Source: a virus
Reading direction: 5' to 3' (one strand)
DNA length: 20,947 nucleotides
Virus record (IMG/VR): IMGVR_UViG_3300009423_000043
Span: 1 to 20,947 of that record
Below, one piece after another: positions 2,993-19,391 of the stretch (its first letter is position 1; every line of letters begins with the position of its first letter). The position numbers and the translations under genes were made by a program. The notes below the pieces were generated by a model. It was not told where the DNA came from and did not search any database. It was given only the letters and a program-made list of their open reading frames with translations.

Positions 2993-4447
2993 ATGCCACA
3001 AGTAAATCACGAACATCCTCTCTACGTAGAGCTCAAGCCTTCATGGGCACAAGTAAACGACTGCATCCAAGGAGAGCGCAAAGTTAAGCACAAGCGCGAA
3101 ACATATTTGCCAAAGCCTAATGCTGGGGATCTCAGCATGGAGAATAAACATCGTTACGAACAATACTTGCTTCGAGCAGTATTTTACAATGTCACCGCTA
3201 GAACTCTTAGCGGATTAGTGGGACAAGTATTTTCACGCGACCCTATTGTAGAGGTTCCTCCTTTGCTAGACGCTATAATGGAAGACTCGGACGGCGCTGG
3301 CGTAACAGTAGAGCAGCAAGCCAAATGCGTTCTGAGCCATGTGCTAGCTAATGGGCGAGCGGGTTTGTTTGTGGACTATCCGGCTGTCGAGGGAACAGCT
3401 ACTAGGCAAGATCAATTAGACGGCAGTATCCGTCCTAATATTTTGCATTATCGCGCTGAAGATATAGTCAACTGGAGAACGGAAAGAGTAGGCGCTAAGA
3501 ACAAGCTGATTCTAGTTGTGCTTAAAGAAACGCATGTGACGGATGACGACGGATTCAAGCAGACTATTGATCCCCAGTATCGCGTTCTCCGTTTGGAGGA
3601 AAATGTTTACCGGGTTCAAATATGGCGAAAGTATGGAACGTCAGGCGTAGGTGAATTTGCCCTTGCGGAAGAATACACGCCTACGGATTCAAGGGGTGGC
3701 GCACTAAACGAGATTCCTTTTCAATTTATAGGATGGGAGAACAATGACATCGACCCGGACTTGCCCCCTCTATATGATCTCAGCGTTATTAACTTAGCGC
3801 ACTATCGCAACTCCGCAGACTATGAAGAAGCTTGTTACATTGTCGGGCAACCTACGCCCTACATGACGGGGCTGGATCAATCTTGGGTAGACGACGTGTT
3901 AAAAGGGCAAGTGCAGCTAGGCTCGAGAGCGGCTGTTCCGTTGCCTGAGGGCGGTTCAATGGGACTTATACAGGCGGCAGCAAATAGCATGCCTAAAGAA
4001 GCAATGGATACGAAGGAGCGGCAAATGGTCGCCCTGGGCGCCAAGCTTGTTGAACAGAAACAAGTGCAGCGCACAGCTACGGAAGCCGGATTAGAAAACG
4101 CATCTGAGACAAGCGTTCTAGCTTCAGCGGCTAACAATACATCCGCAGCTTTTGAAAAAGCTTTGATGTGGTGCATGCTGTTCATGGGAACAGATGGCGA
4201 AATTACTTTTGAGCTTAATACGGACTTCGACATTTACAAACTTGAGCCCCAAGCACAGCAAGCACTTCTCAGCCTATGGCAAAATGAAGTTCTTACATGG
4301 GAGGAAGTGCGTGACAACCTTCGCAAGGCTAATATCGCTTACATGGACAACGAAGAGGCCAAAGATATATTAGAAGCTTCTGCGTTAGATTCTTTTGAAG
4401 CAGTGCTCCCAGTTGCCCCAGATGAAGAAGATGTAGACGATGAATAA
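2993..4447 (+). CDS. Portal protein (DUF4055 type)
   Basis: A 484-residue protein forming the dodecameric ring at the unique capsid vertex, through which DNA enters and leaves and on which terminase and connectors dock (family knowledge). The N-terminal half has the DUF4055 portal pattern: YNVTARTLSGLVGQVFSRDP (65-84) and NGRAGLFVDYP (120-130). The ERQMVALGAKLVEQ segment near residues 342-356 is the usual long-helix region of this family, followed by a helical part leading to the crown. The C-terminus is acidic (PDEEDVDDE). It sits between terL and the MuF gene, as in most such phages, and its end overlaps the MuF start by 8 bases. There is no Shine-Dalgarno site; ATG at 2993 gives the expected length. 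Confidence 0.9.
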   Translation: MPQVNHEHPLYVELKPSWAQVNDCIQGERKVKHKRETYLPKPNAGDLSMENKHRYEQYLLRAVFYNVTARTLSGLVGQVFSRDPIVEVPPLLDAIMEDSDGAGVTVEQQAKCVLSHVLANGRAGLFVDYPAVEGTATRQDQLDGSIRPNILHYRAEDIVNWRTERVGAKNKLILVVLKETHVTDDDGFKQTIDPQYRVLRLEENVYRVQIWRKYGTSGVGEFALAEEYTPTDSRGGALNEIPFQFIGWENNDIDPDLPPLYDLSVINLAHYRNSADYEEACYIVGQPTPYMTGLDQSWVDDVLKGQVQLGSRAAVPLPEGGSMGLIQAAANSMPKEAMDTKERQMVALGAKLVEQKQVQRTATEAGLENASETSVLASAANNTSAAFEKALMWCMLFMGTDGEITFELNTDFDIYKLEPQAQQALLSLWQNEVLTWEEVRDNLRKANIAYMDNEEAKDILEASALDSFEAVLPVAPDEEDVDDE

Positions 4448-6791
4448 AGGCCTCACTGACATAGTAACACGCCACCAAGTTTTACTTGAACGCTATAAGA
4501 GCGGGCGAGCTAAGGACTATGGCGCTCTGGCAAAGAAGTTTGAAGCTGAGCTAATAGGCGAAGCTAACAAGCTAGGTGTGGACAGCTTAAATCAGCTTAC
4601 TAAAAAGCAGTTCGCTACTTTTTCTTCAAACGTAAACACACTAACCCAGTTAAATCAAAATCAAGCAGTCAGCACGTTGCGCTCAGACTTGTCCGAGTTA
4701 GCTAGAAGCGAAGCTTTATTCGAAACTAATACTTTGAACCGAGTTATAACAAGTGAGGACATTGTCGCGAAGAGCGTAGCTGGAAAAGCTTTCGCTGCCG
4801 CGCTTGCTACACCGCTCTCCGCTAACGGGCAGCTACTAGATCCGTTTATGAAGAACTGGTCGGACACAGCTAAGAATCAAGTCAATGGAGTTATTCGTAA
4901 CGGATATAAGGAAGGCTTAACCCTTGGCCAATTAACTCAGCGCATAAGAGGGACACAAGCTGCAAACTTTAAGGACGGACTCACTACTTTAAAAACCAGG
5001 CAAGCGGAAGCAGTTATACGCACATCTGTTCAGCACGTTAGCAGTTCAGCTCGCCAGCTAACATGGGAGGAGAATAGCGATATTGTAAAAGGTAAGAAAT
5101 GGGTAGCTACACTAGACGGCAAAACCACCCAAGTGTGCAGAGGATTGGACGGACGAGAGTTTCCGTTAGACAGCGGGCCTACACCTCCTATTCATATTAA
5201 CTGCCGTTCAACTACTGTTCCCATCCTGGACAAGAAATTAGGTTTAGATTTTTTAGACGAGGGTGCAACTCGCTCCGCTTTGAAAGGACCTGTTCCAGCT
5301 AATCAAACATATTACGATTGGCTTAAAAAGCAACCGCGTGAATTTCAAAACACAGCTATCGGCACGGGCAAAGCTAGATTGCTAAACTCGGGTCAGCTCA
5401 CTTCTGATCAGTTCGCTAAGCTAAGCCTCAGCAAGACGTTTAAACCTCTTACGCTTGCAGAAATGGAAGCTAAGCGGGATCTAGTAACGAAAGGAACATT
5501 GCAAGCCTCAGCTGGTGCAGCGGGGAGACCTAAATCTGGATCTAAAACTGGAGCGATATGGGACACAGCAGACGAACTTGAAATCGAGCTCGGAAGGCTT
5601 CCGACTAAGCCCGAGCTTGTGGAAAGACTAGCGGGGCGCGGCTTTAATGCTTCAACTGTGTCCGTGCAATACGGCAAGTGGCGCAAGGTAACGCTAGCAG
5701 AGCAAGCCACAGCTAGCTCGGCGCTTAGCACTGGGGAAAAGATAGCTGAGCTCACTAGAGCGTCCGCATTGCGTCCTAAGAGCGGTAAAACTGCGGCAGT
5801 GTGGGACTTAGCGGACGACTATGCAATTAAGTATGGAAAGATCCCAAGCAGACAAGAGTTTCTCGCTATTGCTACGAGCGAAGGAATAAATGCTTCGACA
5901 GCCGGAACACAGTTCTCCAAATGGAAAAAAGTTGCCTCCGGCCAACCGGACATCCCTGTGCCTGTGGTGCCTAAAGTTACTAAGCTTACGGATAAAGAGC
6001 GAAGACTCAAAAGCATTTTAAGCGAGGCTGAAGCACTGGGAACAAAGGACGAACTTTATGTGACTAGCCAGTTTAAGGATCAGTGGACGCCTAAACAGAA
6101 ACAAGCACGGAAGGACTTGCACTACTTCATTTCTCAATCCGCAGATCAGAAAAACAAAGCAGTGGTGAAGGTAACCCCCTTTGGAGAACTGCCTAATAGA
6201 TGGGTGAACAGTAAAGGTCAAAAGATGACTTATGAAAAAGTGGCGCCCCAGGATGCAAAGAGACTTCGTGCAGGAGTGGACTGGTTTAATGACATAACTT
6301 CCGGCACAGTTAGAGCTCCGGGCGATGTGCCTGGCCTTCCGGACACCTCACGCAAGATTTTTCTTTATAAGGAATACGTTAATGGCAGACCTCAAAAGAG
6401 GGCGCACTTTTCAGAGGAACGCTGGGGAATTAATAACTGGGATATGAACTTCAGCACTACGCTGCATGAAATGGCGCACAGCATTGAATACAATCGCCCA
6501 GACATTCTTGACAAGAACGACGCCTGGCTTCAAAAGCGTAGAACTAAACCCGACGGAAAAAAGGAACGTTACACTAACCGCGGAGGGAATGGTAAATGCT
6601 TTGATGATGAATGGGGTGAGAGAGGAGGTCATTTTTACACAAGCCGGAGATATCTTTGGCAAGGGGAGGTCGACGCAACGGAAGTCTTGAGCATGGGCAT
6701 CGAAAGAATGTATGCTAACCCAGTGAAATTCTTTTACGACGATCCGGATCACTTTGAAGTTACACTGAAAGGACTGCTAGACTTATGGTAA
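4440..6791 (+). CDS. MuF-type minor head protein with C-terminal HExxH metallopeptidase-like domain
   Basis: 783 residues, far longer than a plain MuF head protein. Residues about 140-262 carry the Mu F-like domain: RQAEAVIRTSVQHVSS, then WVATLDGKTTQVCRGLDG, FPLDSGPTPPIHINCRS. MuF proteins are minor capsid components, some injected with DNA. Next come two copies of an unrecognised ~55-residue module (363-418 and 445-499) sharing RPKSG, KT, W-D-AD, NAST and KW-KV; the shape suggests small helix-turn-helix-like units. The C-terminal part (about 515-783) has LHEMAHSIEY with H676, E677 and H680 of a zinc HExxH site, and later EVDATEVLSMGIERM, where E743 or E748 could be the third ligand, as in gluzincins. 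This resembles MuF polymorphic toxins with swapped C-terminal effector domains. Protease activity and target are inference. The gene overlaps the portal gene by 8 bases and the next gene by 7. Confidence 0.85.
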   Translation: MNKGLTDIVTRHQVLLERYKSGRAKDYGALAKKFEAELIGEANKLGVDSLNQLTKKQFATFSSNVNTLTQLNQNQAVSTLRSDLSELARSEALFETNTLNRVITSEDIVAKSVAGKAFAAALATPLSANGQLLDPFMKNWSDTAKNQVNGVIRNGYKEGLTLGQLTQRIRGTQAANFKDGLTTLKTRQAEAVIRTSVQHVSSSARQLTWEENSDIVKGKKWVATLDGKTTQVCRGLDGREFPLDSGPTPPIHINCRSTTVPILDKKLGLDFLDEGATRSALKGPVPANQTYYDWLKKQPREFQNTAIGTGKARLLNSGQLTSDQFAKLSLSKTFKPLTLAEMEAKRDLVTKGTLQASAGAAGRPKSGSKTGAIWDTADELEIELGRLPTKPELVERLAGRGFNASTVSVQYGKWRKVTLAEQATASSALSTGEKIAELTRASALRPKSGKTAAVWDLADDYAIKYGKIPSRQEFLAIATSEGINASTAGTQFSKWKKVASGQPDIPVPVVPKVTKLTDKERRLKSILSEAEALGTKDELYVTSQFKDQWTPKQKQARKDLHYFISQSADQKNKAVVKVTPFGELPNRWVNSKGQKMTYEKVAPQDAKRLRAGVDWFNDITSGTVRAPGDVPGLPDTSRKIFLYKEYVNGRPQKRAHFSEERWGINNWDMNFSTTLHEMAHSIEYNRPDILDKNDAWLQKRRTKPDGKKERYTNRGGNGKCFDDEWGERGGHFYTSRRYLWQGEVDATEVLSMGIERMYANPVKFFYDDPDHFEVTLKGLLDLW

Positions 6792-10137: not shown

Positions 10138-10153
10138 ACACTATAAAACCATG
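10136..10153 (+). promoter_or_regulatory. A-rich start leader, copy 1
   Basis: AAACACTATAAAACCATG overlaps the previous stop and runs to the start codon of the fibre gene. It matches the leader of the tail tube gene (14639-14656) at 16 of 18 positions, both differences being C/T. No Shine-Dalgarno site is present, so this may be the actual start signal. Confidence 0.5.
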
Positions 10154-12433
10154 CCAGATTTACCAGTTGATGTATATATTGATGAGCTCATGCAGAAAAC
10201 GAGTGCAGCTCAAGCACGGGCGCACTTAGAACTCGGAACCGCAGCTTTAAGCAGTTCGACAGAATTTGCCACAGGAGCAGAAGGGGACTTAGCTGCCACA
10301 GCTTTACAAAATGCTTCAATTTCCACGCTTACACTTCTTAACGCAATAGTAACGGACGCAACGCTGGACGATGCGGGCGACACAAGGCCTCCAAGTGCGC
10401 ACTCGCACACAGCGGCACAGATAAGCGACTTTGACGCAGAGGTGAGCGCCAATGCGGATGTGATAGCAAACAAACTTGCAAGTCACGCCGCGGTTTCTGT
10501 GCTTGATTCTACTGAAATTGATTTCACGCTTGTCGGGCAGCTTATTACAGCGGCACTGAAAGACGGAAGCATTGCCCTAGCTCGATTAGATGCAGCTTTG
10601 CAAACTGCTATCGCAAACGCTAACTCCGCTTCACAGCCCGGCCACGGACATACAGCCTCAGACATAAGCGACTTTGATGTGGAAGTAAGCAATAACGCAG
10701 ATGTTACAGCTAACTCGAACGCCAGGCACGATGGGATAACTAAGACGGGAACTGGAACTTACGTTTCCGTTGCTGGGCAAGTAATAAACGTAGATCCAAT
10801 AGACGCTTCTGATGTCACGGATTTACAAACTGCAATCTCTGGCAATGCGGACGTTAGTGCAAACAAAGCGCAACTGGCGACGTTCTGGGAGGGCAATAAT
10901 TTAGCAGCAACGGCAGACCCAGTCGCCACGGACGACATTAACTCAGGTTATGAAGTCGGTAGCGTTTGGATTAATACTACCTTGGACACTGCATTCAGAT
11001 GCGTAGACAATACAGTGGGAGCGGCGGTATGGACTTCAGGAGGAGGAGGCGGGGGTGCAGCAACTTCTACGGATTCTACAGGTGTTCTGACGGGCGGAGT
11101 TTTAAGCCTTGGAGCTACGTCTACCCGCTATTCAATATCTGATGGAACGGGAATAATTGTAGACGAGTTAGGCAATAAAACAGAAGTGACATGGAGCAGT
11201 CTTTTAAACATTGAGCCCGGTGCCATCAACGCTCAGCAAATTACTTTCGTTAGTATTAACTCAGTTGGTGCAGTTATTGAGCAAGCGGATCCATGGACTC
11301 CTCAACAACGAAGAACACAGATTTGTATTGGAGTAGCTGTTCACGTAGATTTCACAAACGTAGTGGCTGTCAATAATGAGCAGGTCGTTAGCTTCAATCC
11401 GCATTCCTCAGCTTACGATATAGGTGAAGCATTAGGTTTCTTGAACCTGGAAGGCAATGAGTTCATGCCTAATGTAGCTACTCCTACAATGGCGATCAAG
11501 AAGGACGCAGGTGAAATTTTCAAAATGGGTGCCAACTATGACACGGATTCATTAGCTCCTCATAATAAAGTTCTACCCGAATTAGCTCCTGTAACTTTCG
11601 GCTACAGATACTCAGCTGGTAACACAGATTTTAACCAGACAGTTATTGACCCTAATAATCTCGACGACGGGGCGAACGGCTTAACACTAATTTCTGGAAA
11701 TGCTACTGCAAACAGATGGAGCATTCAAAGGGTCTACAGTTTCATTTCTAACAATGTATTTATACAGAGGGGAAGGGAAGAGTTTGGATCATTGGCGGAC
11801 GCGATAGCGGGAATAGGAACGGAGGCCTATGAGGTTGAAGGTTCTATAGCCGCTAACGGATTATTCAGAGGTTACATTATCGTGAAGAAGGGCGAAACAG
11901 ATTTGAACTCTGCAAACGCTACTTTCATTACTGCTTCCAAATTTGGAGCGGCTGGAGCGGGTAGCGGAGCAAGTCCTCACACCCCAGAGGGAACGGCAGT
12001 CTTATCAACAGGAGAAACGGAAGGAATTAAATACCTGCAAGAGCAAGGTAACGATACATCAGAATGGGAATACGTCTACGAGACTTTAGGCTTTGCTTGT
12101 TCTGATGAAACAACCTTTCCGATAGATACAGGGGACAGAATAAAATTTGATTGCCCGTTTGATTTTCGAGTGACTAGGGTTTACGCAACCGTAAACGACT
12201 TTCCAACTGTCAGTTCTTTGTTCCTTAACATAAGGGCAGAGGGAGTTGAGATTCTAGGAACTGATTTAGCAATTCCAGCGGGGACGCATAACGGGGAGAC
12301 AAGCGTATTTGCTGCGGCAGCGGCTAACTACCTAATCAACAAGGGTGATGAAATTATTTGCTCAGTAGAACTTCAAGATTCTGGTTTAGCCGCATCCGGT
12401 TTGAAAGTATTTATGGAAGGAATTAAAGTCTAA
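10151..12433 (+). CDS. Fibre-like appendage / putative receptor-binding protein
   Basis: 760 residues with tail-fibre character. The N-terminal ~240 hold two long repeats beginning HSHTAAQISDF (84) and HGHTASDISDF (165), each followed by a NADV-AN motif; a third partial copy ends GNADVSANKA (231-240). HxHT motifs of this kind bind metal in trimeric phage fibres. A segment GYEVGSVWINTTLDTAFRCV (266-285) and a Gly-rich linker (297-302), both common in fibres, lead to a ~450-residue C-terminal part that is probably beta-rich and of unknown fold. No catalytic depolymerase motif was recognised. The gene sits among head-tail connector genes rather than behind the tail tip genes, so it may be a neck whisker or head fibre instead of a distal tail fibre. 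Confidence 0.7.
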   Translation: MPDLPVDVYIDELMQKTSAAQARAHLELGTAALSSSTEFATGAEGDLAATALQNASISTLTLLNAIVTDATLDDAGDTRPPSAHSHTAAQISDFDAEVSANADVIANKLASHAAVSVLDSTEIDFTLVGQLITAALKDGSIALARLDAALQTAIANANSASQPGHGHTASDISDFDVEVSNNADVTANSNARHDGITKTGTGTYVSVAGQVINVDPIDASDVTDLQTAISGNADVSANKAQLATFWEGNNLAATADPVATDDINSGYEVGSVWINTTLDTAFRCVDNTVGAAVWTSGGGGGGAATSTDSTGVLTGGVLSLGATSTRYSISDGTGIIVDELGNKTEVTWSSLLNIEPGAINAQQITFVSINSVGAVIEQADPWTPQQRRTQICIGVAVHVDFTNVVAVNNEQVVSFNPHSSAYDIGEALGFLNLEGNEFMPNVATPTMAIKKDAGEIFKMGANYDTDSLAPHNKVLPELAPVTFGYRYSAGNTDFNQTVIDPNNLDDGANGLTLISGNATANRWSIQRVYSFISNNVFIQRGREEFGSLADAIAGIGTEAYEVEGSIAANGLFRGYIIVKKGETDLNSANATFITASKFGAAGAGSGASPHTPEGTAVLSTGETEGIKYLQEQGNDTSEWEYVYETLGFACSDETTFPIDTGDRIKFDCPFDFRVTRVYATVNDFPTVSSLFLNIRAEGVEILGTDLAIPAGTHNGETSVFAAAAANYLINKGDEIICSVELQDSGLAASGLKVFMEGIKV
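10400..10870 (+). repeat. Internal ~81-residue repeats of the fibre gene
   Basis: Two in-frame units start at the HxHT codons (10400 and 10643), 243 bases apart. ATAAGCGACTTTGA is identical at 10421-10434 and 10664-10677, the same spacing. The second unit ends near 10870 with a third NADVSANK motif. This is protein-level duplication of a fibre shaft element, with drift between copies. Confidence 0.7.
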
Positions 12434-12439
12434 CGACCA

Positions 12440-12973
12440 ATGAAAAATTATACACTATATCAAATTTCTGTATCGGAACCTGTATTGCCGATCAACCGTA
12501 AGCATCCTCACAAGGACGGAGAAACCTTTCCTCATGATTTGCCGGACGATTATGTTTACTTGGAAGAATCCGTTGCAGACGATCCAGCGTTTGATCCTGC
12601 AACGCACAGAGTAAAGCTAACTCAAAACTGGGTTTACGATGTTCCTAACTTGCAAGCGATACGGCAGAAAGAATTGGTTGCATTGCCCGTTCCAAGCGAT
12701 ACCGAATTAGCAAGGACTCAAATGGCAGCGGATTGGAGGTTGTTAGATTTTGAGTTAAGGGGTTTGTTTCACTCACAATACATGGCAGCAAATAACTTGC
12801 TAGACGAAGGGGACTACGAAGCTGCAAAAGCACTTGTGGACGGCATAGATCCATTTGAAGTCATTAAAGGGAATCCCACCAAGCTCGCGACGTTCAACGG
12901 AGTTAAGGCTCAATTTTCGGCAGCGATAACAGCGTTGCCAACTCCCCCAACTCCACCCATAGATCCCATCTAA
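12440..12973 (+). CDS. Hypothetical protein, possible fibre-associated or fibre-assembly factor
   Basis: A 177-residue protein without a clear family match. The N-terminal half is strand-like and polar (NYTLYQISVSEPVLPINRKH, then a Pro/Asp-rich part and THRVKLTQNWVYDVP). A helical middle follows (TELARTQMAADWRLLDFELRGLF, then YMAANNLLDEGDYEAAKALV) and the C-terminus is proline-rich (PTPPTPPIDP). A beta N-terminus with a helical rear is seen in some tail-fibre assembly proteins, and it lies directly behind the fibre gene by 6 bases. That role remains inference. The start context GACCAATGAAA is the same as that of the tail chaperone gene. Confidence 0.6.
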   Translation: MKNYTLYQISVSEPVLPINRKHPHKDGETFPHDLPDDYVYLEESVADDPAFDPATHRVKLTQNWVYDVPNLQAIRQKELVALPVPSDTELARTQMAADWRLLDFELRGLFHSQYMAANNLLDEGDYEAAKALVDGIDPFEVIKGNPTKLATFNGVKAQFSAAITALPTPPTPPIDPI

Positions 12974-12974
12974 C

Positions 12975-13733
12975 ATGATTTTAAATCCTTATCGCTTCGC
13001 AACAGCAGGCACTTTCGGCAACAACAGCCGTGACTTCGATGGCACTGAGGACTGGATTCATATTGGCGATGTTTTTAACTTTGACAGCACTGGAGACGAT
13101 GAGGTGTTTACCCTTGCGGCATGGGTAAAAATATCAGAGACGGCCTTCCAGCACATACTTGGAAGGTTCGGCACAGCTACCACAGACCGAGCTTGGATGT
13201 TCTATGCTACCACAGCGGCAAAGCTGCGTTTTTTCTGGTCGCAAGAAACTGGAACAGGACGGATCTACGAAACATCGGCAGCAGTTATTGACTCTACAGC
13301 GTGGGTGCATGTGGCAATTGAATACGATGGAACACAGGCAGTTTTTGACGACCGAGTGACTATGTATATCAACGGCGGCACAGGGCTAACATTCGGTAGC
13401 GGACTATCTTCCGTCAGCGCAGTAGGAAGCCCAAATTACATTCAAACCGTCACCGCACCGCTCAACATTGGAGGCAGCACCAACGATGCCTCTGGCACAA
13501 GCCTAACAAGACTCACTGATGGCAAGCTGGCAGACGTGCGAATCTATGACGCGTTAATTGGCTCGACTGAGGTGGCAAACCTAGCCGCTGGCACAGACTA
13601 CCAGACCAACCTCGTCGGCTGGTGGTTGCTCGACACCGATGATGTTAATGACAACGCTGGGGTGAACGATGGCACAAACGAACCAAGCGGAGGAACGCCA
13701 TCAGTATTCGACACGGACGGACCACTAGACTAA
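12975..13733 (+). CDS. LamG / concanavalin A-like lectin domain protein
   Basis: 252 residues, nearly all one jelly-roll domain of the laminin-G type. Typical elements are RDFDGTEDWIHIG at the start, FTLAAWVKIS (46-55), WVHVAIEYDGTQ, VTMYINGG, APLNIGGS and DGKLADVRIYDALIG, ending with VGWWLLD. Such domains bind carbohydrate or act as structural beta sandwiches on phage appendages. No signal peptide is present, as expected for a virion protein. The start is one base after the previous stop. It appears richer in GGC, GCA and ACC codons than its neighbours, consistent with recent acquisition. The likely role is host-surface binding or appendage decoration together with the preceding fibre. Confidence 0.75.
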   Translation: MILNPYRFATAGTFGNNSRDFDGTEDWIHIGDVFNFDSTGDDEVFTLAAWVKISETAFQHILGRFGTATTDRAWMFYATTAAKLRFFWSQETGTGRIYETSAAVIDSTAWVHVAIEYDGTQAVFDDRVTMYINGGTGLTFGSGLSSVSAVGSPNYIQTVTAPLNIGGSTNDASGTSLTRLTDGKLADVRIYDALIGSTEVANLAAGTDYQTNLVGWWLLDTDDVNDNAGVNDGTNEPSGGTPSVFDTDGPLD

Positions 13734-14638: not shown

Positions 14639-14656
14639 AAACACCATAAAACTATG
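14639..14656 (+). promoter_or_regulatory. A-rich start leader, copy 2
   Basis: AAACACCATAAAACTATG stands before the tail tube gene and matches the leader of the fibre gene (10136-10153) at 16 of 18 positions. The flanks differ, so this is not simply a duplicated gene border. Confidence 0.5.
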
Positions 14657-15595
14657 TCAGACGCATCACGCCACGCATTATATCAAGTGCTCGAGTCTAC
14701 CTACGGGACAACTCCTGCAACGCCTTCATTCGACAAGGTGCGCCACACTGGCGTCACCATAGGATTATCGAAGGACATTAGCCTATCCGAGGAACTTAGA
14801 GAGGACCGCCAAATTGGCTGTTCTAAACATGGCCCCAGAACTATTTCAGGGGACATTGCTTTTGAGCTAAGTTACGGATCATTCGACACGCAACTAGAAG
14901 CAGTAACTCTCGGGACTTGGGAAGTCGACGGAGGGGGTGCTGGAATCGACAGACTCAAAGCGGGCGTTGCACGTCGTAGCTTTTCTGTTATGCGACACTT
15001 CTCAGATCAAGGAGGGGGCGACAAGCCTTACCACTTGTTCACAGGAATTGAATATAACACGATGAACTTAACAGTAGCTCCTCAAGGGATTCTTGCTGGA
15101 ACTTTCGGAGTTGTAGGACAAGACATGGCAGTCAGCGACACCGCTCCGGCTGGAGCAACGTTAGGAGCTGCGACTGAGAACTGTCCTTTCAACGGGTTTA
15201 CTGGAGCTATTAAAGAGAACGACATTCTTATTGGAGTTGTTACTGAGCTTACGCTAACTCTGGAGAACGGACTTGAATCTCGTTTAGTTGTGGGCAGTGA
15301 TAAAACTATCCTTCCACAAATCGGACGTTCTAACCTTTCTGGGCAAGCGACTGTTTACTTTGATAACGCTACACTGCTTGAAAAGTTTCTTAACGAAACA
15401 GAATCCAGCATGGAGTTTGAACTAAACGACGGCATTAACAAATACACAGTTCTTATTCCTCGCATTACCTACACCGGAGGAGCTAACCCGGACACAGCAG
15501 GTGAGGGCTCAATTACTTTGGCACTTCCTTTCCAAGCACTCGTCGATGACGTAACTGTGGAAAGCAATATTCAAATCGATCGCTCGGCAGTCTAA
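14654..15595 (+). CDS. Major tail tube protein
   Basis: A 313-residue subunit expected to stack as rings into the tail tube. The start (ALYQVLESTYGTTPATPSFDKVRHTG) and the segment LREDRQIGCSKHGPRTISGDIAFELSYGSFD are the hallmark of the phage tail tube family seen in siphoviruses. Later parts (FNGFTGAIKENDILIGVVTELTLTLENG; SGQATVYFDNATLLEKFLNE; TYTGGANPDTAGEGSITLALPFQAL) follow the expected alternation of strands. The length suits a tube protein with a small extra domain. It is preceded by the 18-nt A-rich leader and followed by a hairpin, like the major capsid gene, which suggests these are the two highly expressed structural genes. Confidence 0.88.
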   Translation: MSDASRHALYQVLESTYGTTPATPSFDKVRHTGVTIGLSKDISLSEELREDRQIGCSKHGPRTISGDIAFELSYGSFDTQLEAVTLGTWEVDGGGAGIDRLKAGVARRSFSVMRHFSDQGGGDKPYHLFTGIEYNTMNLTVAPQGILAGTFGVVGQDMAVSDTAPAGATLGAATENCPFNGFTGAIKENDILIGVVTELTLTLENGLESRLVVGSDKTILPQIGRSNLSGQATVYFDNATLLEKFLNETESSMEFELNDGINKYTVLIPRITYTGGANPDTAGEGSITLALPFQALVDDVTVESNIQIDRSAV

Positions 15596-15674: not shown

Positions 15675-16154
15675 ATGAAAGACCTAGAACTATTCAGCAC
15701 ATCAGAGCTCGGCAATGCCGGAGTTAAGATTCCTTTGACCGATGTGGAGGGAAATAAAACGGAGCACTGGATCAAAATCGTAAGTATCGATTCGACACAG
15801 TTTAAAAAAGCGCAAAGCCTTTTCCGAAAAGCAATGCTAGACACCCACGCAGACGAAGAGCCGGACGAGGCTCTTTTCAACGACCCGGAAAAAGCTGACA
15901 GACTAACCACCGAACTACTAGCTTCATTAGTTGTAGCTTGGAGTTTTAAAAACGACGACGGGACACCTTATGAATGTTCTAAAGCTAATGTTATTAAAGT
16001 TCTACGGGATGCTCCAGTTCTCGCACAAGAAATTGACGAGGCTTCTGCGCAACGTAGAAATTTTATCAAGCGGAGCTCGACAAAATCTGCAACTTCGCGA
16101 AGCAAGAGTTCGAGCTCCAGAAATATCCGGAAAACTCAAAAGTCAGTAAGCTAG
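15675..16154 (+). CDS. Tail assembly chaperone, short form (gpG-like)
   Basis: 159 residues if translation continues in frame 0. The first ~130 look like a gpG-type chaperone: LTDVEGNKTEHWIKIVSID strands, a FKKAQSLFRKAML helix, and LTTELLASLVVAWSF. In siphoviruses such proteins coat the tape measure during tail assembly and are absent from the virion. Beyond residue 130 the frame turns into a Ser/Lys/Arg-rich low-complexity tail (IKRSSTKSATSRSK and so on), as expected where the conserved reading has moved to another frame. It lies directly before the tape measure gene, as in lambda G-GT-H. The start context is AAAAAAAGACCAATG without a Shine-Dalgarno site. Confidence 0.85.
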   Translation: MKDLELFSTSELGNAGVKIPLTDVEGNKTEHWIKIVSIDSTQFKKAQSLFRKAMLDTHADEEPDEALFNDPEKADRLTTELLASLVVAWSFKNDDGTPYECSKANVIKVLRDAPVLAQEIDEASAQRRNFIKRSSTKSATSRSKSSSSRNIRKTQKSVS

Positions 16155-16402
16155 CTCACTTAGAGCAAGTCTACAAGACAACTGGGATAAAGCCTAAAGA
16201 ATTAATTCGATCTAAACTGCCCGAGCATTTAAGTTACCTATTTCACTTTTACAAAGAACTTAAAAACGCTGAGCCACTAACTTACCTAGAGATTAAAGCA
16301 TGGACTGACTTAACAGGAACAACGCTAAGTGATTTTGATGTAACTGCATTAAGACAAATCGATCTAGTTTTCCTAACCACACTCACAACGAATAATGACT
16401 GA
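15675..16402 (+). CDS. Tail assembly chaperone, long form by -1 frameshift (gpGT-like)
   Basis: Reading 15675-16064 in frame 0 (130 codons, ending with Phe130), then slipping back one base and reading from 16064 to the stop at 16400-16402, gives a 242-residue protein. The added 112 residues have real protein character and match tail chaperone C-termini: YQAELDKICNFAKQEFEL, LAHLEQVYKTTGIKPKELI, LTYLEIKAWTDLTGTTLSDF, VTALRQIDLVFLTT. The -1 frame is blocked by TAG at 16055-16057 just upstream of the slip site, so this part can only be made by frameshifting. Its end overlaps the tape measure start by 8 bases. In lambda the T extension recruits tube subunits to the tape measure; the same role is likely here. 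Confidence 0.85.
16058..16118 (+). promoter_or_regulatory. -1 programmed ribosomal frameshift signal
   Basis: Slippery heptamer A AAT TTT at 16058-16064, with zero-frame codons AAT and TTT. After a 7-base spacer (16065-16071) comes a perfect 9-bp stem, GGAGCTCGA (16072-16080) with TCGAGCTCC (16110-16118). The 29-base loop contains a smaller hairpin (CTT-CGCG-AAG, 16093-16102). Heptamer type, codon phase, spacer length and stem all fit the classical signal. Confidence 0.85.
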
Positions 16403-19391
16403 AGATGTAGCAAGACTAAGATTAACTGTAGAGTCAAGAGGAGTTGCTAAGTCGCGCACTGAGTTGCAAAAGTTATCCAGGCAAGGCAAAAGAACACAGG
16501 AATCACTAGGCGGAGTTAAACGTTCCGCTGGCGCTGTGGCAGCTAGCATGGTAGGAATGGGAGCTGTGCTTCTCACTGTAGGCGCGACGCTTACAAAGAT
16601 AACTCGTAATTGGTTTAGCTTTAACAAAGCTATGCTCGAGGTGCAAACGATTGCGGGAGTAACGGCCGACGAAATGAAAGGGCTTCGAATGCAAGCGTTA
16701 AAGCTTTCACAGACCCTGGGTGTTGACGCTACGGATGCAGCGCGAGGTTTTTATCAAGCCATCTCCGCTGGAGTTGCTGCCCAGGATGCTGCCGCGTTTG
16801 TAAGCCAGGCAGCTAAGCTGGCACAAGCGGGAATCACAGATGTGGGCACTGCCACAGACTTGCTGACGACTGCTTTAAACAGCTACGGCAAATCTACAAG
16901 CGAGGCGGTTAAGGTAAGCGATATGCTTATGGAGACGGTGGTTCTGGGTAAGACTAACATGCCTCAACTGGCAAAGAGCTTTTCCCGTGCTTCCGCTGCG
17001 GCTGCAAACATGGGCGTTGAAATGTCCGAGCTCCTGGGCATCACTGCGATGCTTACTAAGCAGGGCGTTCCAACTGCGGAAGCAATGACGCAAGTCAAAG
17101 CCGCGCTAACTGCACTGGTAAACCCCTCCAAGGAGTTACAGTTCCTTTATGAAGAGATGGGTGTGTCGAGCGGTCGCGCACTAATCGAGCAAGAGGGCTT
17201 AGCCGGAGCTTTAGATAAAGTTAGAACTGCTACCCAAGGAAACGATTCAATGCTCGTTAAGGCGTTGCGTTCAACGGAAGCTTTGAACGGAGCTTACGGC
17301 ATAACCGGAGACAAGTTAAAAGAAACCCAAAAGCTGACTGAACAAGTCGCTGATTCAAATGGCAGAGTTGCAGAAGCGTCAAAGATTGCAGCTAACGAAA
17401 TTGGCCCAGCGAGCGAAAGGATAAGCGCCTCGTTTACTATAATGGCAGAGTCTATCGACAAAGCCACGAACGCTAGTCAGTTTCTGATTGATGCAATGAA
17501 CGGAATATCAGACACGATTTCCGATCCTGCATTTAGCGAAGCTTACTGGACAGCTTTGGCAGAAGGCCCGGAAAGGTTTTTCAAATGGTTCCTAACGGGT
17601 AAAGGTTACATAGAGCAGACAAATGATGAGATCGCTAAAATAGGACTCACCCTGGAGCAGCAACGCAGATACGAAGAAAATATAGAGACTCAAAGGAGGC
17701 GCAACCAAGCGGCTCAAATGACGGCTTTAGAAACTGCGCAACGTTACGTGAAGCTGCAAAGAGCTTTGGAGATAGCTGAAGGCGGCAGATTTACAAAGAG
17801 CATTGCTAGCTTAAAACAGGAGCTGACTTATTTGGATGAAAGCATTGGCAAGCTGGATCGCAAAGAAAGAATTCTTATTAACTATCAAACCCAAATCGAA
17901 AGGGTAAACGTTCAGCTTAAAAGAAACTTAATTACACAAGAGCAATGGAAGACTAAGGTCGATCAAATTAAGCGGGCGTATGAGGATGTCATCACTAACG
18001 GCGATCTCCTGGACAGAGCCATAAGAAACGTTCGCGATACTGCCATTAGCACTAACAAAGAATTTGAAAACTGGAAAACCAATATCCTAGAAGCCGCGAG
18101 CAATAGTAGCTTACTTCTCAAGCGTATTATAAACGCGAAAGAAATACGGCAGTCTCAAAGCCGCATTGATGAAATAATGCTAGGCTATGAAGATGACAAG
18201 CTGGCCGCACTTGAAAAACAGAAAAAGGAATACGAAGACCATTTAAAGTTAGGAGGACAGCTAACTGAAAAGCACCAAGGCATTTTAAATCTTATTAACA
18301 ATGCTATCGACAGCATGCGCGAGTTCAACAGTGAAGCTCGCAAGTCTGCTACGGATAAAACTTATGACTCGCTCAAGGAGAATTTGAGAACTCCGTTAGA
18401 AGTTGCAACTGCTGAGCTTAACAAAGCACAGGAGGCGATTGGAGCGAAAGCTAACATCAGCATGGATGAACGGGCGGACATGCTCGCTCGAGCTACTAAT
18501 AGGTTCCTTGAAGCGACTAAGGATCCTGAGAGTGCGAAAAAGGCGGGAGGGGGTGTGGACAAAGCTACCCAGGAAGCGGAGAGACGACAGCAAGAGTTTG
18601 AGCAGTTGGAAATGAGCTTGATGACAGAAGAAGAAGCAATAATGCGAAGCTACAATGAGCGGATGCAGATTGTCATCAATGCTACGGAAATGACAGAGCA
18701 GCGCAAAGCTGAAATCAAGCAACGCATAACAGCAGACACGAACCGCAAGCTGGACGACATGGAGCAAAGGCGCTTGCAAACTTCACTCCGAGTTGCGTCT
18801 GACTTCTTTGGGGGAATGAGTCAGCTTGCGGCAAGCTTTGGTAAGAAGGGTGCTAAGATTGCGAAAGCTGCCGCTATTGCACAAGCAACCATCGACATGT
18901 ATGCCTCCGCAGTGGCAGCATACAAGTCCGTAGTAGGCGTTCCCTATGTAGGGCCTGTGCTGGCGCCAATCGCAGCGGCAGGAGCTATCGCAGCAGGTGT
19001 CGCGCAAATACAAGCTATTAGATCGCAACCTGTGGGCGGTTATGCACAGGGCGGTATTATACCGGGCACGTCCACATCCGGAGACCGCTTGACTGCAAAC
19101 GTCAACAGCGGCGAAATGGTTCTGAATAAACAGCAGCAAACAAACTTGTTCAGAATGGCTTCTCAAAAGAAAAATTCCGACTCGTCCGGAAGGGGAGGAA
19201 ACGTCACCATCATAAATCAAACACGGGGCGAAGTTTCAGGGGAGCAATCAACAGACTCAGAGGGTAACATGCAAATTCTAATCCGCGAAGCTGTGCAGCA
19301 AACAAAGAACGAACTTACTAATGAAGCCTCGTTAGGCGGAGGCAGTTTTCTTCCAGCTATGGAAGGCGCTTACGGAATAGCTAGAAAATAA
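16395..19391 (+). CDS. Tail tape measure protein (TP901 core type)
   Basis: 998 residues. It sets tail length and is ejected ahead of the DNA. An N-terminal part (1-45) with many Lys/Arg is followed by a hydrophobic Ala/Gly/Val segment (about 46-67) and the TP901-type core (WFSFNKAMLEVQTIAGV, LSQTLGVDATDAARGFYQAISAG, TDLLTTALNSYG, MLMETVVLGKTNMPQLAKSFSR, MLTKQGVPTAEAMTQVKAAL). A long charged helical region (about 400-820) contains coiled-coil-like runs. A second hydrophobic stretch (about 825-875) precedes the familiar GGYAQGGIIPGTSTSGDR and SGEMVLNKQQQ motifs near residues 880-915. At ~0.15 nm per residue this predicts a tail near 150 nm. The start lies within the end of the frameshifted chaperone reading. 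Confidence 0.93.
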   Translation: MTEDVARLRLTVESRGVAKSRTELQKLSRQGKRTQESLGGVKRSAGAVAASMVGMGAVLLTVGATLTKITRNWFSFNKAMLEVQTIAGVTADEMKGLRMQALKLSQTLGVDATDAARGFYQAISAGVAAQDAAAFVSQAAKLAQAGITDVGTATDLLTTALNSYGKSTSEAVKVSDMLMETVVLGKTNMPQLAKSFSRASAAAANMGVEMSELLGITAMLTKQGVPTAEAMTQVKAALTALVNPSKELQFLYEEMGVSSGRALIEQEGLAGALDKVRTATQGNDSMLVKALRSTEALNGAYGITGDKLKETQKLTEQVADSNGRVAEASKIAANEIGPASERISASFTIMAESIDKATNASQFLIDAMNGISDTISDPAFSEAYWTALAEGPERFFKWFLTGKGYIEQTNDEIAKIGLTLEQQRRYEENIETQRRRNQAAQMTALETAQRYVKLQRALEIAEGGRFTKSIASLKQELTYLDESIGKLDRKERILINYQTQIERVNVQLKRNLITQEQWKTKVDQIKRAYEDVITNGDLLDRAIRNVRDTAISTNKEFENWKTNILEAASNSSLLLKRIINAKEIRQSQSRIDEIMLGYEDDKLAALEKQKKEYEDHLKLGGQLTEKHQGILNLINNAIDSMREFNSEARKSATDKTYDSLKENLRTPLEVATAELNKAQEAIGAKANISMDERADMLARATNRFLEATKDPESAKKAGGGVDKATQEAERRQQEFEQLEMSLMTEEEAIMRSYNERMQIVINATEMTEQRKAEIKQRITADTNRKLDDMEQRRLQTSLRVASDFFGGMSQLAASFGKKGAKIAKAAAIAQATIDMYASAVAAYKSVVGVPYVGPVLAPIAAAGAIAAGVAQIQAIRSQPVGGYAQGGIIPGTSTSGDRLTANVNSGEMVLNKQQQTNLFRMASQKKNSDSSGRGGNVTIINQTRGEVSGEQSTDSEGNMQILIREAVQQTKNELTNEASLGGGSFLPAMEGAYGIARK

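Follow-up and report, generated by a model that had tools for sequence, protein, structure and literature searches.

The locus described here is, with a probability that we put at about 0.96 from the sequence evidence, a tail assembly chaperone gene of the lambda G/GT type that uses programmed -1 ribosomal frameshifting. It lies in an uncultivated tailed phage (uncultivated virus record IMGVR_UViG_3300009423_000043), the 20,947 bases of which constitute the window analysed, and all features of the locus and its two flanking genes are on the plus strand. A gpG-like 0-frame chaperone ORF of 159 aa (15675-16154) is overlapped by a -1 frame extension, a gpT-like domain of 112 codons plus TGA (16064-16402). 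The two-form tail chaperone proposed in the sequence-only reading is supported directly by the anatomy of the slip site, the homologies of both parts, the gene order and a frameshift signal that is conserved and covarying among relatives, and from these we infer the slippage, its efficiency and the assembly roles of the two products.

The chaperone ORFs are positioned as in the lambda G/GT type, between the genes for the major tail protein and the tape measure protein. The upstream gene (14654-15595) encodes a tail tube protein (Pfam PF18906 Phage_tube_2, 1.9e-45) and the downstream gene (16395-19391) encodes a tape measure protein (Pfam PF10145, 5.9e-33; PHROG 991, 6e-46), the start of which overlaps the end of the -1 frame (16395 against 16402).

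The 0-frame codons at the slip site read AGA (16056-16058), AAT, TTT and ATC, so that AAATTTT (16058-16064) is an X XXY YYZ heptamer in the correct phase; it falls within codons 128-130 of the 159 in the 0-frame ORF. The codons up to and including the slip site specify residues 1-130, and the 29 that follow them overlap the -1 frame, which is open from 16058 to 16399 and stops at TGA (16400-16402). An in-phase heptamer followed by a 7-nt spacer (16065-16071), a perfect 9-bp stem (16072-16080 with 16110-16118) and a 29-nt loop had been claimed for this site, together with a -1 frame shut just 5' of the heptamer by TAG (16055-16057) and then open for 112 codons after the slip; all of these coordinates were verified in the sequence. 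The region 16155-16394 would indeed appear empty if no frameshift took place, as no ORF of at least 60 aa lies there on the plus strand. As a control for chance, a total of 21 in-phase XXXYYYZ heptamers were counted among the 6672 codons of the window. Twenty of them lead into -1 ORFs of 2-29 codons and the heptamer at 16058 leads into one of 114. The efficient slippage suggested from the strength of the signal is not supported. Slippage at this site need not be strong, since the P-site tRNA-Asn on A AAT TTT must re-pair with AAA, where its third position is predicted to be mismatched.

Both parts of the gene were found to resemble tail assembly chaperones. The 0-frame product matches the tail assembly chaperone family PHROG 313 (E=1.4e-22), and the -1 product matches Pfam PF23812 Phage_TAC_18 over its cut-off (4.3e-13) as well as PHROG 4966 (1.1e-14). 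The 259-aa tail assembly chaperone family PHROG 15027 scores 16.3 bits with the N-terminal part alone and 36.0 bits with the fusion, the latter match spanning residues 9-233. The proposed relationship of the -1 extension to tail chaperones was also examined with an AlphaFold model of this domain (mean pLDDT 85), which matches (TMq 0.91, 115 columns) the predicted structure of an annotated tape measure chaperone, that of Escherichia phage Seurat, and, less strongly, other chaperones of about 260 aa; together with the PF23812 match, this bears out the relationship. The N-terminal part gave a model with a pLDDT of 79, and no match for it was obtained in the PDB by sequence or by fold. Searches for the N-terminal part in genome contigs, of NCBIfam, and of known phages at the nucleotide level returned no matches. 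In Pfam the 0-frame ORF hit a paramyxovirus P/V domain (0.005), but this fell below the cut-off and was discarded as chance.

With tblastn, the N-terminal part was found in 87 phage records and the -1 part in 126, and in distant phages the two matches abut with their frames one base apart. Many database records show two separate genes at this place, which would be consistent with a second small protein translated independently from the -1 ORF, through re-initiation or coupling. However, the -1 frame of the studied phage contains no ATG, GTG or TTG and the first start codon in the relatives checked occurs at codon 68 or later, which makes independent translation unlikely, and the homology of the -1 part extends right up to the slip site. 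We consider this explanation very improbable in comparison with frameshifting.

Nine distinct sequences obtained from viral contig scans, the studied phage included, make up the clade in which conservation was assessed. The 0-frame part of the other members is 56-67% identical to that of the studied phage, and the whole 0-frame product ranges from 136 to 161 aa across relatives as its tail runs to different stop codons. The heptamer AAATTTT in phase, the 7-nt spacer and the open -1 frame are present in all nine. Stop codons in the -1 frame were sought and none was found in any relative checked; similarly, no member of the clade has lost the heptamer, and most distant phages have another slippery heptamer at approximately the same place. 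The sequence-only reading had described the -1 extension as conserved-looking, and the frame is under purifying selection: mean pN/pS is 0.38 in the part past the overlap, and where the two frames overlap it is 0.46 when read in the -1 frame and 0.71 when read in the 0 frame. A single ORF split by a one-base assembly or sequencing mistake would likewise give an abrupt change of frame with homology on both sides, but the arrangement recurs in another contig that is 99.9% identical and in eight further distinct relatives, with the frame overlap, the heptamer and the stem all conserved, and such an error, refuted by these relatives, is extremely improbable.

The stem-loop downstream of the heptamer (16072-16118) is the predicted stimulator of frameshifting, a feature that is common but not universal in the lambda G/GT type. 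The folding energy of 16058-16135 is -18.8 kcal/mol compared to -12.6 kcal/mol in dinucleotide shuffles (z -2.3). All 81 cells (nine pairs in nine clade sequences) are paired, and pairing falls to 52-59% when the stem partner is slid by one column. Compensatory changes on both sides were observed at three of the nine stem pairs, and the covariation score was reached by none of 500 shuffles, a result that is strong but is not a probability as the shuffle control leaves the relatedness of the sequences in. The conservation of the stem is partly due to coding, because both of its arms are also coding sequence in the -1 frame. Some of the compensations, however, pair a change that is synonymous in the -1 frame with one on the opposite arm that alters the amino acid in that frame, and such coupling is not what coding constraint by itself would be expected to yield. 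At alignment columns 36/76 a change of GAG to GAA is coupled in this way with a change of CTC to TTC, and a further case occurs at 39/73.

The more elaborate structure suggested for this region was not borne out. The inner hairpin proposed within the loop is based on a 10-nt palindrome, CTTCGCGAAG, that pairs over only 3 bp, at a cost of 1.9 kcal/mol to the stability of the fold; other inner pairs form in the minimum-energy structure, and the inner pairs fail in five of the nine sequences. The suggested pseudoknot check, in which the loop was compared with downstream sequence, revealed no register of four or more pairs kept in six of the nine sequences. An Rfam search returned nothing meaningful.

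The covarying RNA stem, set 7 nt from the heptamer, is consistent with a ribosomal signal, and this bears on the alternative that RNA polymerase slips at the site, by transcriptional realignment, rather than the ribosome. Relatives with runs of A5T4 (L027) or T7 (L011) at the site would be compatible with polymerase slippage, but the studied phage has just A3T4 and transcriptional slippage usually needs longer runs than this. Polymerase slippage is thus highly improbable here, and ribosomal frameshifting remains the preferred reading. According to this mechanism, most ribosomes would translate 15675-16154 and produce the short chaperone of 159 aa. A minority would pause at the stem-loop, where the tRNAs on AAT and TTT would slip back to AAA and TTT; reading would then resume at TAT (16064) and stop at TGA (16400), giving a 242-aa fusion with RRNF-YQAELDK at its junction. 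On the lambda model, the N-terminal segment shared by both forms may bind the tape measure protein, whose gene begins at 16395, and the tail tube subunit encoded at 14654 may be recruited by the -1 domain.

Phage lambda makes gpG and, through low-level -1 slippage, gpGT, with the tape measure protein bound by the G part and the tail tube subunit by the T part (PMC5009743). The lambda frameshift and its conserved counterparts are credited to Levin 1993 and to Xu, Hendrix and Duda 2004 where PMC5009743 cites them. The studied phage resembles lambda in the location of the locus between the tail tube and tape measure genes and in the second domain carried by the long form, and a rare long and an abundant short form would be expected here as well. 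It differs in its chaperone families (PHROG 313 and Phage_TAC_18), in the covarying stem-loop downstream and in its heptamer, which is A AAT TTT whereas that of lambda is G GGA AAG. A literature match for AAATTTT (PMC10299305) is unrelated, as it deals with a hydrolase and with a +1 shift proposed for a Wolbachia phage.

Counterparts also occur in Acinetobacter phage DMU1 (MT992243, L014) and in Bradleyvirinae (Mesyanzhinovviridae), Queuovirinae, Serratia and Vibrio phages, which share the homologous domains and the same gene order; in DMU1 the heptamer is also followed by a comparable stem. Unlike the studied phage, these homologues mostly have T TTT TTC, and 16 of the 18 distant phages fetched carry it at roughly the corresponding position. 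The heptamer of Pasteurella phage Pm86 is G GGA AAC. No XXXYYYZ heptamer was found at the expected place in the chaperone gene of Serratia phage Serbin (L008, 1201-1892), where the 0-frame codons are CGA AAG TTC TTT, and slippage in this phage may use CGA AAG or another motif. A stable structure downstream of the heptamer is present in only some of the distant phages. Among the related-phage records fetched, the frameshift is annotated only in DMU1, the record of which names gpG and the frameshift product gpGT. The two frames are mostly listed as separate hypothetical proteins in the others (L009-L025), or the second is missed.

The slip site is real and conserved in relatives. It adds a further case to an ordinary system that has long been known and leaves the general picture unchanged. 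In practice it allows this group of phages to be annotated correctly, since most related records either omit the C-terminal domain or list it as a hypothetical protein of its own. The one mildly new point is that the heptamer has changed within a homologous family, with the spacing and the stem kept in the clade. A tentative and on balance doubtful explanation is that the heptamer of this clade went from the usual T TTT TTC to A AAT TTT, with its weaker P-site re-pairing, and that the covarying stem at fixed spacing was kept, perhaps to hold the short-to-long ratio. If true, this would be a case of heptamer turnover compensated by the stimulator. The changed heptamer, constant spacing and covarying stem provide a natural series for studying how the ratio is maintained.

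A few other genes in the window were also annotated. The 479-aa protein encoded at 19396-20835 matches PHROG 384 (virion structural protein) over its first 124 residues, and a family search gave no match beyond them. The Mu F-like head morphogenesis protein encoded at 4440-6791 (783 aa) has a long C-terminal extension with an HExxH motif (HEMAH), which suggests a metallopeptidase-like domain, and it also matches the head maturation protease family PHROG 595 (9.6e-24). Finally, the region 10151-13733 encodes a tail-fibre-like protein (PHROG 16641), a 177-aa ORF and a laminin G-like lectin protein, and these fibre-like genes occupy an unusual place between the head-tail connector and the neck and tail genes.
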